From assembly GCA_937868725.1 (NCBI GenBank), contig CALMMQ010000092.1:1-36061 (forward strand): a stretch of DNA of 36,061 bases, read 5' to 3'. The translations under genes were made by a program, and so were the position numbers. This document shows positions 1,811-7,708 of the stretch, one piece after another. Source of the DNA: an uncultured Pleomorphomonas sp. (GTDB lineage: Bacteria > Pseudomonadota > Alphaproteobacteria > Rhizobiales > Pleomorphomonadaceae). Every line of letters starts with the position of its first letter. The stretch's first letter is position 1. The notes under the pieces were generated by a model, which ran no database searches, had not been told where the DNA came from, and saw only the letters and a list, made by a program, of their open reading frames with translations.

Positions 1811-3316
1811 TCATTCGAGCGGTTTCGCTTCCCCGATGACCTCCACGAACAGGCTTTGGCCGAAGCTGGTTGCCATCGGCTCTCCGTAGTCCAGCCTGAA
1901 CGGCCTCTTACCGTCGTCCGGCCGCTCCGCACGCAGGAAGACACCATCCATTTCTCGCTTCTCAGCCATTGCATGAGCGAAGGTGTAGAGATGTGTCACG
2001 AAGGCGATGCGGGCGCCGCGATCGATTAGCGCCGTGGTGATCTCCTCGGCGATCCTCGATCCCTCGCGCTCGTTGGTGGCGGCAAAGGATTCGTTGAACA
2101 GGAACAACGACCGGCACGTGGCGATTTCCGCCAACGCGTCCATGCGCGTCAGCTCCTCGTCGAGCTTGCCGGAGCGCATCTCGGCGTCCTCCTCCTCGCG
2201 GAAATGGCTGAGGACACGATCGGCGACGCTGGCGGTGAAGGCCGTCGCCGGAACGAACAGGCCGGCCTGCATCATCAGCTGGGCGAGGCCGAGGCTGCGC
2301 AGGAACGTCGTCTTGCCGCCACGGTTGGCGCCGGTGACGACGATAAGGTGCCGGCCGTCCGCCTCGATGTCGTTGGCGACCACCTTGCCGTCGGTCCTGA
2401 GCCCGAGACAGATCTCGTAGAGCCCGGTAGCGGCAAGGTGGAGTTCCTCGGGGGCGGCCGGTATCGGCACACAGACGTGCAGGCCCCGCTCGGCCAGGGC
2501 ATCGCGCAGGTTGAGGCCGCCGATGTAGAAGGCGAGTTCCGTCCTGAGCATGACGAAGAAGCTCGAGACGTGATCGGCCGACTGCGCCACCGCGTTGGCG
2601 ACCAAGTTCAGCCCGCGGGCCTCCAGTTCCTCGCGAGCCTTCCAGCCGGCCTCGTCGCGCGGGGCGATCTCAAACCGAAGGCCGGGTGCTTGCCGCCCGA
2701 TGATGCGTTCGAAGAACGAGCGGTCCTTCGGCCAGCGCCGCAGACTATGGCCGGTGCCGTGGTTGCCGGGGCCGAGGGAGGCGCTGATCAGCACGCCCTC
2801 GTTGAATTGCAGGCGGTCGAGTTCGGTCTTGACCGTCTCGAAATAGTCTGGCGCCAGTTCCCGGTCGAGCATGGCGAAGAATTGCCGGAACCCCGGCGAG
2901 CGGAAGTGTTCGGCCTGTTCGGCCGCCAGCGACTTGATGCGCCCCAGCCCGGCCATGAAGTCATCGAGCATGGCCCTGGATCGGCCCACGATCGAGGATG
3001 GGGAATCCGCCCAATGCCAGGATTGCTTGCGCTCGGCTTCCAGGGCCGCGCCGGCGACGGCATAGATCTCCTTGACGACCCGCGGATTGGCGAGGCAGTC
3101 GTCGAGAACCGCCTGCCGGTAGCGGACGAGATCGACGTCGGCCTCGGTCGAGGTGAGAAGCGCCACGCGCGCCACGTCGCCGACCAGCCTGTCGCCGTTG
3201 GCCATGGCGGCGATCAGGGTGTCGAGGCCGAGGTCGGCTATCAAGGCGTCGGCGTTGGCCGGCAGCGGCCGGGCGGGATCGAAGTCCCGGTCGGGGAACA
3301 TCAGATACGCCTTCAC
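1811..3316 (-). CDS. MutS-like ATPase B, last gene of fluoride operon
   Basis: This is a 501-residue protein of the MutS ATPase superfamily that lacks recognisable mismatch-recognition domains. The C-terminal third carries Walker A GANRGGKTTF (329-338), a Walker B-like SLFLFNESF (403-411) with Asn408-Glu409 in place of Asp-Glu, and VTHL (440-443), which resembles the TTH motif of MutS. The N-terminal part is helical and shares an RYRQAV stretch (66-71) with the upstream neighbour, so the two are paralogues. I chose the GTG at 3314-3316: it overlaps the upstream TGA by 4 bp (GTGA) and has AAGGAG 8-9 nt before it. A longer open frame to 3730 only mirrors the neighbour. MutS-like genes are among those reported with fluoride riboswitches. 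The biochemical role is unknown, and a heterodimer with the neighbour is plausible. Confidence 0.85.
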   Translation of the reverse strand: MKAYLMFPDRDFDPARPLPANADALIADLGLDTLIAAMANGDRLVGDVARVALLTSTEADVDLVRYRQAVLDDCLANPRVVKEIYAVAGAALEAERKQSWHWADSPSSIVGRSRAMLDDFMAGLGRIKSLAAEQAEHFRSPGFRQFFAMLDRELAPDYFETVKTELDRLQFNEGVLISASLGPGNHGTGHSLRRWPKDRSFFERIIGRQAPGLRFEIAPRDEAGWKAREELEARGLNLVANAVAQSADHVSSFFVMLRTELAFYIGGLNLRDALAERGLHVCVPIPAAPEELHLAATGLYEICLGLRTDGKVVANDIEADGRHLIVVTGANRGGKTTFLRSLGLAQLMMQAGLFVPATAFTASVADRVLSHFREEEDAEMRSGKLDEELTRMDALAEIATCRSLFLFNESFAATNEREGSRIAEEITTALIDRGARIAFVTHLYTFAHAMAEKREMDGVFLRAERPDDGKRPFRLDYGEPMATSFGQSLFVEVIGEAKPLE

Positions 3317-4881
3317 GGGATGCGCTCCTTGAGGATCCGATAGGTCAACCGGTGCCGCTCGGCCAGCGCCATGGCATAGGCGAGGCCGTCGGCCGGCCGC
3401 CGCTCCAACTGGAAGGTGCGCAGGGCCGTGTCGCGTGGATCGACGCCGCCGACCATGCTGACGACGGTGTCGCCGAACGACGCCAGCTCGTCGATAAAAG
3501 TCACCCAGACGGCGAGGACGTCGAGGTCGACCAACCGCGTCATCACCTCCCGGCTCAGCCAGACCGCATCGGCGAGTGTGGTCGAGGTAAAGATCTCGTT
3601 GAGGATGACGAGGCTCGCCGGCGTCGCAAGGCCAAGGATGTCCCTCATTCGCAGGAGGTCGTCCTCGAGCTTGCTGCGCTCCGACGTGGCGATCTCGGGG
3701 CGTTCGAAATGGGTGAAGATGCGGTCGCACAGATGCGGCGTCGCCGAGCGGCCGGGCACCGGGCAGCCGAGGCCGGCGAGATAGTGCAACTGGCCGAGCA
3801 TGCGGGCGAAGGTGGTCTTGCCGCCCTGGTTGGGGCCGGTGACCACGACGATGCGTTCGGAGCCGGCGAGGGCGAAGTCGTTGGTGACGACGGTGTCGCC
3901 TTGGCCGGCGAGCTTGTGGGCCAGCGCGACGTCGAAAACGGCTTCGCCGTGCACCGCCTTGCCGTCCGAGACCTCGGGATAGCAGAACGGCAGCCCCCGG
4001 CGCCTGACGGGGGCGATATGGTCGAGCCAGGCAAGGTAAAACTGCACCTCCCGATCGAAGGTGGCGATGGTCGTGTCCATGAAGTCGGCTTCTACCGTGG
4101 CGAAGGCGTCGAGGCGGCTGAAGGTTTCCGGGTAGAGTTGGGCTACCAGATCGAGGATGCTCGCCTCGATGTGGTTCATCGCCCCCCTGTCCGGAAGCTT
4201 GACGCTGTGATCCTTCGCGTCGGCCTGTTTGAACTTGGCGAAGACGTCCAGCACTTCCTCGGCAAAATCCGGCTGGCTTTCCTGCGGCGCGACGTGAACG
4301 TGGCTGCCGATCAGATAGACGCAGTAGGAAATGGCGGCGAGGTCACGCTTGAGGCCAGCGGCCGCGGCGGCCAGCGCCGTGAAGCGCGAGCTGCCGGCAT
4401 AGGCGGCGAGATAGTCGCGGAACGCTCCGAGCCCGGCCGAGTGCAGTTCGACGGCCGTGAAGGCCTCGACGAAGCCGCGCACTGCGGCGTCGTAGAGCAG
4501 CACGCCGTCGAGGAACCAGGCCTGCTGCTCCAGCTTGTAGCGGACCTTGTCGATCTGCGCGCGGTTGGCCCTGAGCGCCTGCATGCCCTCGGCGAAGGCG
4601 TCGAGCGCGGCCCGCACCTCCGGCCGTTCGGCATCGCGGAAGACGGCCTGCCGGTAGCGGATGTCCGCGATGTCGGCGAGCGCCGTGTGGAAGATCGGCA
4701 CGAGGTGGTAGTCCGGCTTCGGCGCCGTCGCGGCTGCGACGATCTGGTCGAGGTTGAGATCGCGGAAACAGGCCGGCGCCGGCGCTTCCTCATCGAAACC
4801 TCGCGACGGATTGGCGAAGAGGACGCTGACCGCGACCGAAACCGCCCGGCTGGGGACGGCTGGGGCGTTCTCATCGGGCAT
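3313..4881 (-). CDS. MutS-like ATPase A, fluoride operon
   Basis: This is a 522-residue protein with a MutS-type ATPase domain at its C-terminus: Walker A GPNQGGKTTF (349-358), Walker B-like SLVILNEIF (423-431) and FTSTTLADA in the MutS signature region. As in its neighbour, the Walker B acidic pair is Asn428-Glu429 rather than Asp-Glu. The TTH motif position reads VTF (460-462), so the usual His is missing. Residues 60-300 are mostly helical and include RYRQAV (76-81), shared with the neighbour. No MutS mismatch-binding domain or Smr nuclease domain is visible. The ATG at 4879-4881 has GGGAGG six bases upstream. An in-frame start at 4995 would overlap crcB and is unlikely. It is 25 bp from crcB and overlaps the next gene by 4 bp. 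Confidence 0.85.
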   Translation of the reverse strand: MPDENAPAVPSRAVSVAVSVLFANPSRGFDEEAPAPACFRDLNLDQIVAAATAPKPDYHLVPIFHTALADIADIRYRQAVFRDAERPEVRAALDAFAEGMQALRANRAQIDKVRYKLEQQAWFLDGVLLYDAAVRGFVEAFTAVELHSAGLGAFRDYLAAYAGSSRFTALAAAAAGLKRDLAAISYCVYLIGSHVHVAPQESQPDFAEEVLDVFAKFKQADAKDHSVKLPDRGAMNHIEASILDLVAQLYPETFSRLDAFATVEADFMDTTIATFDREVQFYLAWLDHIAPVRRRGLPFCYPEVSDGKAVHGEAVFDVALAHKLAGQGDTVVTNDFALAGSERIVVVTGPNQGGKTTFARMLGQLHYLAGLGCPVPGRSATPHLCDRIFTHFERPEIATSERSKLEDDLLRMRDILGLATPASLVILNEIFTSTTLADAVWLSREVMTRLVDLDVLAVWVTFIDELASFGDTVVSMVGGVDPRDTALRTFQLERRPADGLAYAMALAERHRLTYRILKERIP

Positions 4882-4906
4882 GGCGACCTCCCATAGGGCA
4901 TGCCAT

Positions 4907-5305
4907 TCAGGCCGTCGCTGGAATGACGAGCGTCCGGACCACGGCGAGGCCGGCGACCAGCGCGCCGATCGATACCACCACCGAGCCCAGCACATAGGCG
5001 AGCGTCGCCAGCGACTGGCCGCGCTCCCAGAGCACCGCCGTATCGAGCGAGAAGGTCGAGAAGGTGGTGAAGCCGCCGATGATGCCGGTGGTCAGGAACA
5101 GGCGGACCGGCTGCGGCAAGCCGCTCTTCAGCGCCCAGTATTCGGTGATCAGCCCCATGACGAAGCTGCCGAAGATGTTGACGAACAGCGTGCCGTAGGG
5201 CAGCCCCGTCCCGAACCAGCGCGCCGCCACCAGCGCCGAACCATGGCGCAACGCGCTGCCGATGCCACCGCCGATGAACACCAGCAGGAAACCGTAATAC
5301 CCCAT
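4907..5305 (-). CDS. crcB: CrcB/FluC fluoride channel
   Basis: This 132-residue protein has four hydrophobic segments and the family hallmarks: GGGIGSALRH near the N-terminus (12-21), Asn43 in GTLFVNIFGSF (38-48), and GFTTFSTFS (78-86), which carries the pore Phe and Ser/Thr residues. CrcB/Fluc proteins form dual-topology dimers in the inner membrane and let fluoride flow out of the cell. This is the normal length of a single-gene homodimeric version. GGGAG lies 9 nt before the ATG. It is the third gene of the riboswitch operon, between eno and the two MutS-like genes. Both the family and the riboswitch context point to fluoride export. Confidence 0.96.
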   Translation of the reverse strand: MGYYGFLLVFIGGGIGSALRHGSALVAARWFGTGLPYGTLFVNIFGSFVMGLITEYWALKSGLPQPVRLFLTTGIIGGFTTFSTFSLDTAVLWERGQSLATLAYVLGSVVVSIGALVAGLAVVRTLVIPATA

Positions 5306-5333
5306 CGATCAAGTCTCCCAGATGGAAAAGCGA

Positions 5334-5358
5334 GCGGAGCCGGCGAGACCGGCTCCGC
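5334..5358 (-). terminator. Intercistronic stem-loop between eno and crcB
   Basis: A perfect 10-bp inverted repeat (GCGGAGCCGG and its complement, 5-nt loop) fills the gap between eno and crcB. On the minus strand it is followed by TCGCTTTTCC, a weak T-rich tail. It may act as a partial terminator or an mRNA-stabilising or processing site that adjusts how much crcB is made relative to eno. Confidence 0.45.
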
Positions 5359-5365
5359 CCGAAGG

Positions 5366-7500
<2,135 letters not shown>

Positions 7501-7555
7501 CGTCACCTCCATCACGAGCGGCGACGGGATTGCCCGCGCCGGTCACAACTCGGGC

Positions 7556-7583
7556 AACAAAAAACCCGCCGGCGGCGGGTTTC
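7556..7583 (-). terminator. Intrinsic terminator downstream of fluoride aptamer
   Basis: On the minus strand AACCCGCC-GCC-GGCGGGTT forms an 8-bp GC-rich stem with a 3-nt loop and is followed by six T. It lies between the aptamer and the uspA start, where a transcription-controlling riboswitch needs it. Fluoride binding is expected to prevent its formation. A second hairpin (7598-7612, CGGGCC/GGTCCG) lies between aptamer and terminator. Confidence 0.85.
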
Positions 7584-7623
7584 GGAAACGCCCCTGCCGC
7601 GACGGACCATTGGCCCGTTTCAA

Positions 7624-7673
7624 GCAGGAGCTATCAGCGCTGAGGCGGTTGTCGGGAAGCTCCATTCCCATCA
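7624..7673 (-). promoter_or_regulatory. Fluoride riboswitch (crcB motif)
   Basis: Read on the minus strand, the segment fits the fluoride aptamer: GGGA-AUG-GAGCU-UCCC, then GACAACCGC, a small hairpin CGC-CUCA-GCG, CUGAU, and AGCUC-CUGC. The pseudoknot pairs GGGA with UCCC. The long-range stem pairs GAGCU with AGCUC. The conserved AUG, AACCGC and CUGAU nucleotides are in place. Compared with the Thermotoga aptamer, both helices are kept by different base pairs. A sigma70-like promoter lies just upstream, and a terminator and then uspA-eno-crcB lie downstream. The fluoride-related genes confirm the call independently. Confidence 0.93.
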
Positions 7674-7679
7674 CAGACA

Positions 7680-7708
7680 ACACTATCCTGCAAGACACAG
7701 CCTGTCAA
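7680..7708 (-). promoter_or_regulatory. Sigma70-type promoter of the fluoride operon
   Basis: On the minus strand TTGACA (7703-7708), a 17-bp spacer and TAGTGT (7680-7685) form a good -35/-10 pair. Transcription would start near 7673, exactly at the 5' edge of the fluoride aptamer. Confidence 0.7.

Follow-up and report, generated by a model that had tools for sequence, protein, structure and literature searches.

A probable two-part MutS-like ATPase in a predicted fluoride-riboswitch operon of Pleomorphomonas

The stretch of DNA considered here (the window, 36,061 nt) comes from the genus Pleomorphomonas, family Pleomorphomonadaceae, and holds, behind a fluoride riboswitch, five co-directional genes of the minus (-) strand in the order uspA, eno, crcB, MutS-like A and MutS-like B, a run that on sequence grounds is predicted to be a fluoride-resistance operon. 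The products of its last two genes, A (522 aa; 4881-3313, -) and B (501 aa, GTG start; 3316-1811, -), look like a dedicated two-part fluoride-response ATPase rather than mismatch-repair proteins, and within the MutS superfamily they appear to be a branch of their own that is as yet uncharacterised. That A and B make up a heteromeric ATPase dedicated to the fluoride response is considered almost certain, and the label 'MutS-like' should not, as far as domains and motifs indicate, be read as DNA repair. An earlier sequence-only reading had described a promoter, a fluoride aptamer, a terminator and the five genes as one compact unit whose last two parts have no known role; its observation is confirmed and its interpretation supported, with the qualifications given below.

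The MutS-like pair and its riboswitch across phyla

Species genomes of GTDB were scanned with an alignment of A, and the best 80 of at least 566 confirmed candidates were taken as survey loci, which come from many bacterial phyla and include one archaeal metagenome-assembled genome (Woesearchaeota). B adjoins A in 79 of these 80 distant loci, the exception (L088) stopping at a contig edge, and the two genes overlap by 4 bp at 58 of the 71 joints that could be measured, which bears out the proposal that the MutS-like genes are a coupled pair. The pairwise distances of A and B co-vary (Mantel r 0.91 over 74 loci, reached in 0 of 2000 permutations), as expected of partners, but equally of any co-inherited genes.

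Riboswitches were sought with a model built from 25 aptamers found by Rfam, none of them out of the 80 survey loci, in which both helices co-vary (17 double-changed cells against 4.0 in shuffles). A riboswitch is present in 70 of the 80 loci, or in 67 at a stricter E of about 0.001, and in 51 loci (46 at the stricter level) one occurs on the strand of A and no more than 700 bp upstream of it, where the matches' own density would lead one to expect 3.7 (3.4); nine were found on the opposite strand. None was detected in 32 control loci (117 kb), comprising presumed ordinary MutS genes and the host genome's other eno, against about 15 expected at the same density; the control MutS genes are all from the window's class, 11 being ordinary MutS by motif check and the rest presumed so from their class-search scores. 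The co-occurrence that the sequence-only reading proposed to survey thus holds for the riboswitch, whereas eno was found in 25 loci and crcB in only 15 (counts made with phmmer against few references, many loci lying on short contigs, and hence lower bounds). With 70 loci against 15, the constant companion of the pair appears to be the riboswitch and not crcB.

Domain content was read from alignments of A (A4) and B (A5), which comprise 73 of the 79 and 66 of the 72 usable survey members, respectively, each with three rows from the genus, seven from plasmids and the window sequence; L120, L130, L095, L110, L112 and L124 were omitted as near-copies or contig-edge loci. Window A and B reach 59.7 and 65.2 bits (E 5e-16 and 1e-17) against Pfam MutS_V, whose cut-off is 30.2 bits, and thereby belong to the superfamily; MutS_V is the only MutS domain they match, and it occurs in all 84 A and all 77 B members. 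The complete Pfam lists of these members (E <= 0.01) contain neither MutS_I nor MutS_II, MutS_III appears in one of the 84 A members, and no Smr domain is listed for any of them, KOW likewise being seen in none. The AlphaFold2 (AF2) models of A (pLDDT 88.5) and B (pLDDT 85.1) each drew 50 listed Foldseek matches in the PDB, all of which are MutS, MSH or MutS2 structures (best E 6e-19 for A and 2e-16 for B).

In a tree of the ATPase domain, A (19 rows) and B (18 rows) each form one clade and jointly form another (support 100/98), which stands apart from 22 comparison rows (13 MutS1-type, 8 MutS2-type and one KamC-like). The tree was built from every fifth A and B member together with one genus and one plasmid row each and the window; L139 gave no comparison row, and L142 was left unscored for Walker B, as the search pattern had hit a different part of that sequence. 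The Walker-A Lys and the Glu following Walker B are invariant in 84 of 84 A and 77 of 77 B members, which fits ATP hydrolysis. The Walker-B Asp, which coordinates Mg2+, is replaced by Asn in 84 of 84 A and 76 of 77 B members and is retained in all 21 scorable comparison rows. The two ATP sites are probably unlike, since the H-loop reads T-F in every A (84/84, His replaced by Phe) and T-H in every B (77/77).

Known identities were examined and, by curated cut-off, rejected. Scores of A and B, respectively, are 61.8 and 61.3 bits for MutS1 (TIGR01070, cut-off 641.7), which is also contradicted by the missing domains I and II and the separate clade, and 46.3 and 72.5 bits for MutS2 (TIGR01069, cut-off 400), where the absence of Smr and the separate clade likewise speak against identity. 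For KamC (NF052383) they are 46.5 and 69.4 bits, over the C-terminal part only, against a whole-length cut-off of 300. No NCBIfam model exceeds its cut-off for window A or B, and the NCBIfam listings for the 84 A and 77 B members contain generic MutS models and KamC only. An anti-phage defence protein was also discarded, the PADLOC matches being P-loop-sized only and at most 18.9 bits.

The pair is carried by plasmids as well. Matches to A were found in 52 plasmid records, 45 of them covering at least 80% of its length, with hosts including Klebsiella, Citrobacter, Enterobacter, Rhodococcus, Burkholderia, Caballeronia, Rubrobacter and Alicyclobacillus, among others. Nine plasmid stretches were read: in those of Caballeronia, Burkholderia, Mycobacterium branderi and Alicyclobacillus the pair comes immediately after a riboswitch, and in two Klebsiella stretches and one Enterobacter stretch a riboswitch precedes an antiporter-uspA-A-B run; the Rhodococcus and Rubrobacter stretches have no same-direction riboswitch directly before the pair. 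Dense clusters of fluoride riboswitches were noticed at two loci, namely four in 19 kb on the M. branderi plasmid (L053) and eight in 21 kb in Pandoraea (L135).

The operon in the window and its relatives

The aptamer (crcB motif, RF01734; 7678-7618, -) scores 41.2 bits (E 3e-8; gathering score 34), so its family membership is secure, and it is predicted to act as the fluoride-responsive switch of the operon. Its 3' end lies 117 nt from the uspA ATG, and between the two there is a terminator-like hairpin, CCCGCC/GGCGGG followed by six T (7582-7559, -; from the sequence and the RNA fold of 7540-7685), which is presumed to be the expression platform. The 146-nt stretch of the 5' untranslated region folds with a z of -3.1, none of 200 shuffles doing equally well, so that both the aptamer and the terminator of the sequence-only reading are upheld; the hairpin is absent from the pattern scanner's listing of terminator-like sites in the window. 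The promoter fared less well: a perfect TTGACA is visible as candidate -35 (7708-7703, -), but the candidate -10, TAGTGT, at a 17-bp spacing (7685-7680, -) is poor, and a pattern scan of the window returned 0 promoter-like sites, leaving the promoter unconfirmed.

Behind this region follow uspA (7500-6661, -, with a GTG alternative at 7515; 279 aa with two Usp stretches, Pfam Usp 9.5e-10), eno (6634-5366, -), the genome's second enolase, and crcB (5305-4907, -), which encodes a Fluc fluoride exporter of 132 aa (Pfam CRCB 4e-27) and lies above both equivalog cut-offs (NF010794, 154.3 against 125 bits; TIGR00494, 96.1 against 80.45 bits). The gaps are 26 bp (uspA-eno), 60 bp (eno-crcB) and 25 bp (crcB-A). 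Co-directional genes with short gaps had been correctly described, but 4-bp overlaps had been claimed more generally, and the A/B joint is the sole one to overlap.

The order riboswitch-uspA-eno-crcB-A-B is found again in two further species of the genus (G391, locus L180, and G393, locus L181), a conservation that argues for one operon. The combination of riboswitch, exporter and fluoride-inhibited enzyme in one co-directional run, as in the operon of Enterobacter cloacae FRM discussed below, is kept in both. The genome G393 has a second copy of the whole operon (L182, contig 39), in which eno and A are in pieces, and G400 carries a longer form, riboswitch-crcB-DUF190-antiporter-uspA-eno-A-B (L183). 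The claim of a single unit is thereby strengthened, but a GC-rich hairpin directly 3' of eno (5361-5331, -; from the pattern scan and the fold of the eno-crcB gap) may uncouple expression and could be an attenuator or an mRNA 3'-end element. The gap folds with a z of -4.2 in the window, on which account the genes distal to eno may be transcribed less, and with a z of -2.1 each in L180 and L181 (7 and 4 of 200 shuffles as good); the equivalent gap of L183, where A directly follows eno, gives no fold signal. As a class, terminator-like patterns are not in excess in the window scan (2 found, 4.3 expected). A step-down after eno would be plausible by analogy with E. cloacae FRM, for which induction of about 100-fold through eno and about 10-fold beyond it is reported (PMC5533749).

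The host genome carries two fluoride riboswitches. The second (contig 4, 43.1 bits; L038 9523-7908) precedes uspA-crcB, both about 70% identical to their window paralogues. There are also two enolases and three MutS_V genes, that is, one ordinary MutS and the A/B pair. In the family, the pair occurs in 4 of 20 genomes and a riboswitch above cut-off in the same four (Fisher p 2e-4), all of which belong to one genus and are therefore not independent; two further genomes of the genus have sub-cut-off riboswitch matches (33.5 and 22.8 bits) and no pair. In 385 sampled genomes of the class, a search with A found only the host genome clearly above the level of ordinary MutS, at which most matches lay, and the search is thus informative on rarity only.

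The window enolase exceeds the TIGR01060 cut-off (642 against 300 bits; Enolase_N/C 3e-58/3e-118), and its catalytic motifs are presumably kept, as compared by eye with the genome's other enolase. Two or more enolase matches were found in all 22 genomes chosen for a full enolase at the pair locus and in 25 of the 29 genomes searched overall. In a 56-row tree, which omits four duplicates and pieces with matches of fewer than 380 residues, the window enolase groups with pair-locus enolases of Acetobacteraceae, the same genus, Bacillota, Myxococcota and Verrucomicrobiota (six rows, support 100/97) and the genome's other enolase falls outside, which rules out a local duplication of the latter. The pair-locus label requires 5 changes on this tree against a shuffled mean of 18.8, suggesting that pair-locus enolases have several origins and that the window lineage was carried across phyla; those of L068, L081 and L134 fall among the 26 'other' enolases, which were drawn from pair-bearing genomes as their other or best matches and are not proven housekeeping enzymes. 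Residue 396 (window numbering) is Glu in 27 of 30 pair-locus enolases and Asp in all 26 others. This residue was considered as a fluoride-tolerance mark, an idea that was dropped because the fluoride-sensitive eukaryotic enolases also carry Glu at the matching position, and it is kept only as a mark of lineage.

Elsewhere in the window, two gpmA-like pieces (856-1155 and 1152-1439, +; 25 and 28 bits) lie beside the operon and convergent to it; in E. cloacae FRM, gpmA belongs to the operon itself (PMC5533749). A cobalamin riboswitch (12513-12279, -; 112.7 bits) and a tRNA-Leu(CAA) (8970-8886, -) are ordinary features. A genomic island at the tRNA was considered and rejected, and no island boundary is claimed, as the 3' end of the tRNA has no repeat in the window.

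Possible roles of the pair

Fluoride is proposed to bind the aptamer and, given that a fluoride-bound aptamer lets transcription pass the terminator, to turn the operon on; CrcB/Fluc, which lets fluoride out, would export the ion, and the additional enolase would offset the inhibited enzyme, for which extra enolase compensates. Inhibition of enolase by fluoride is described in a 2024 review (PMC11139923). A and B, for their part, would be obligate partners in a single heteromeric ATPase whose two ATP sites are unlike and which might clamp onto a protein or complex locked by fluoride and Mg2+ (and phosphate or nucleotide); ATP hydrolysis would then prise the client open, releasing the inhibitor and restoring the client's activity. 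The pair would accordingly use the core-clamp-ATPase arrangement of MutS for reactivation or remodelling rather than for detecting mismatches.

Action on a protein rather than on DNA is judged probable, and the remodelling of a putative fluoride-poisoned client is the favoured overall explanation, if a tentative one. The broader idea that A/B is a widespread ATP-driven fluoride reactivase, which ejects metal-fluoride from enzymes and whose Walker-B Asn perhaps avoids its own trapping by metal-fluoride-ADP, is regarded as doubtful. Precedent for a MutS-type ATPase working as a machine on a non-DNA target may be seen, by analogy, in Bacillus subtilis MutS2, which lacks domains I and II and is reported to split ribosomes through its ATPase (PMC10897456), and NCBIfam names one MutS-like ATPase, KamC, as an enzyme reactivase. 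Enolase, linked to the pair by its presence in 25 of the 80 loci and by the clustering of the window enolase with pair-locus enolases of other phyla, is one candidate and the first in line, but is unlikely to be the main client.

The neighbours of the pair are varied. Besides eno (25 of the 80 survey loci, in three as short stretches) and crcB, they include dynamin-like genes (25 loci), MFS transporters (17), antiporters (12), NADHdh-type membrane subunits (12), uspA (9) and gpmA (8). Among the open reading frames (ORFs) touching the pair, 59 of 77 listed were scanned, 18 having been left out by hand (14 shorter than 150 aa, one a piece of A); Dynamin_N was found in 7, DUF6062 in 5, enolase in 3 and MFS in 3. 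Such a mixture of families suggests that the pair is tied to the fluoride regulon in general and that adjacency does not name its client. DUF6062, which recurs in those five touching ORFs, is a family of unknown function. The dynamin-like GTPases amount to 36 ORFs in the 25 loci, 15 of them directly behind a fluoride riboswitch (examples are L068:11478-13160, L101:17045-19108 (-) and L076:14246-15907), and Dynamin_N was confirmed in all five ORFs checked, the reference included. All 12 NADHdh-type membrane-subunit ORFs stand directly behind a fluoride riboswitch (for example L118:15821-16807 and L071:13851-14810) and may correspond to the formate-hydrogenlyase genes named in 2010.

Several observations weigh against the remodelling of a poisoned client. 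The modelled A and B retain, besides the MutS core and the ATPase, a clamp region in shortened form; DNA binding is therefore possible, and the mean charge of the clamp region is +3.8 in B (-0.1 in A). The ATPase tree comprises 205 columns, is midpoint-rooted with unsettled bootstrap and comes with a long-branch warning. The pair shows no special closeness to the reactivase KamC (46.5 and 69.4 against 300 bits), which is represented in the tree by a single row (L138; 283 bits, itself below cut-off) with a branch of 3.9 that fell beside the MutS2 rows and therefore says nothing firm on kinship. Ten of the 80 loci lack a riboswitch match, six of these being empty by Rfam as well, and in three of the ten A begins at most 136 bp from the contig start. 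The case for enolase as client is further weakened by the higher count of Dynamin_N than of enolase among touching ORFs (7 against 3 of 59) and by the many pairs that directly follow a switch of their own.

A DNA target would make A/B a heterodimer of MutS type whose task is to recognise or process damage or structures that arise in DNA under fluoride stress, with or without MutL. The retained core, clamp region and ATPase and the positive clamp region of B would suit it, as would the DNA-damaging stress proposed as a link by Weinberg 2010 (PMC2864571) and the presence of MutL above cut-off in 37 of 44 pair-bearing genomes. MutL is, however, missing in the other 7, which speaks mildly against a MutL pathway, even if those genomes are mostly drafts; neither the mismatch domain (I) nor the connector domain (II) appears in the Pfam lists, the clade is separate from the MutS1 and MutS2 rows, and MutS_V is the sole DNA-repair family among the 25 listed of 42 families in pair-touching ORFs, so that this explanation is considered unlikely. 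Still less likely is a rescue of translation, in which the pair, as a MutS2-like heterodimer, would split ribosomes stalled by translation GTPases trapped with metal-fluoride-GDP. MutS2 does split stalled ribosomes, in vitro independently of an intact SMR motif (PMC10897456), and the structures that A and B match, by Foldseek and by sequence, include the MutS2 core and MutS2-ribosome entries; no ribosome-related family, however, stands out among the 25 families listed beside the pair.

The abundance of dynamin-like genes at the survey loci (25 of 80, with 36 ORFs, of which 15 directly follow a riboswitch), the first rank of Dynamin_N among touching ORFs (7 of 59) and the antiporters of 12 loci would fit a membrane or ion-homeostasis arm in which the pair partners dynamin-like GTPases or antiporters of the same regulons. 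Yet neither the window operon nor L180-L182 yielded a dynamin gene, and in L183 one lies beyond the pair on the opposite strand, so that a membrane role is given little credence. It would be more surprising again if the MutS-like genes were passengers that ride mobile fluoride islands and play no part in fluoride tolerance. Their distribution is patchy, the host genome giving the sole high-scoring match in the 385 class genomes, and of the 52 plasmid records that carry A, 22 are classed as conjugative; such passengers would nevertheless have to account for adjacency in 79 and a riboswitch shortly upstream in 51 of the 80 loci, in many phyla, and for ATPase motifs that are nearly invariant.

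Known systems and meaning of the finding

The fluoride riboswitch is reportedly the subject of Baker 2012. The closest known relative of the window operon is that of E. cloacae FRM, ppaC-uspA-eno-gpmA-crcB-orf5249, which is fluoride-induced and required for high resistance and which likewise unites a fluoride riboswitch, uspA, eno and crcB in a single operon; its six genes include no MutS-like gene (PMC5533749), and the window in turn is without ppaC, gpmA and the P-type ATPase. An FRM-type operon lies convergent to a second riboswitch operon, antiporter-uspA-A-B, on the two Klebsiella plasmid stretches and the Enterobacter one. The FRM operon also substantiates the statement of the sequence-only reading that uspA is a known riboswitch companion, as it occurs there with eno and crcB (PMC5533749), and the corresponding statement on mutS is borne out by Weinberg 2010, where mutS is listed among the genes behind crcB RNA (PMC2864571). 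In the part of that work available, mutS is read as a DNA-repair gene and is given no pair, clade or motif analysis.

Among MutS-type proteins, A and B share the core-clamp-ATPase fold with MutS1 and with the MSH proteins, which are also heterodimers, but differ from them in the absence of domains I and II, the separate clade, the Walker-B Asn and the H-loop Phe of A. With MutS2 they have in common the same reduction to core, clamp and ATPase, whereas they show no Smr or KOW, fall in a separate clade and are two unlike genes, MutS2 being described as a homodimer (PMC10897456). KamC (NF052383, lysine 5,6-aminomutase reactivase ATPase) is MutS-like and matches the ATPase domain of A/B weakly, but the pair is far below its curated cut-off and the lone KamC-like row does not group with it. 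No paper on the MutS-like pair was found in the literature searched, in which subscription journals are thinly covered, and the main text of the 2024 review mentions neither MutS nor DNA repair (PMC11139923). The position of mutS behind crcB RNA (2010) and the fluoride-induced uspA/eno/crcB riboswitch operon (FRM) are therefore already in print; what is added here, from sequence comparison, is the pairing of A and B, their clade, their apparent direct control by the switch and their odd ATPase motif.

Since 2010, the mutS gene behind the fluoride RNA has carried only a guess of DNA repair. The pair may now be treated as one object, consisting of sister subunits that are nearly always together and often stand shortly behind a fluoride switch, and as such a defined object it makes the question of function directly testable in vitro. 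If A and B do remodel poisoned enzymes, they would represent an arm of fluoride defence besides export and enzyme over-production, as well as a new use of the MutS fold.

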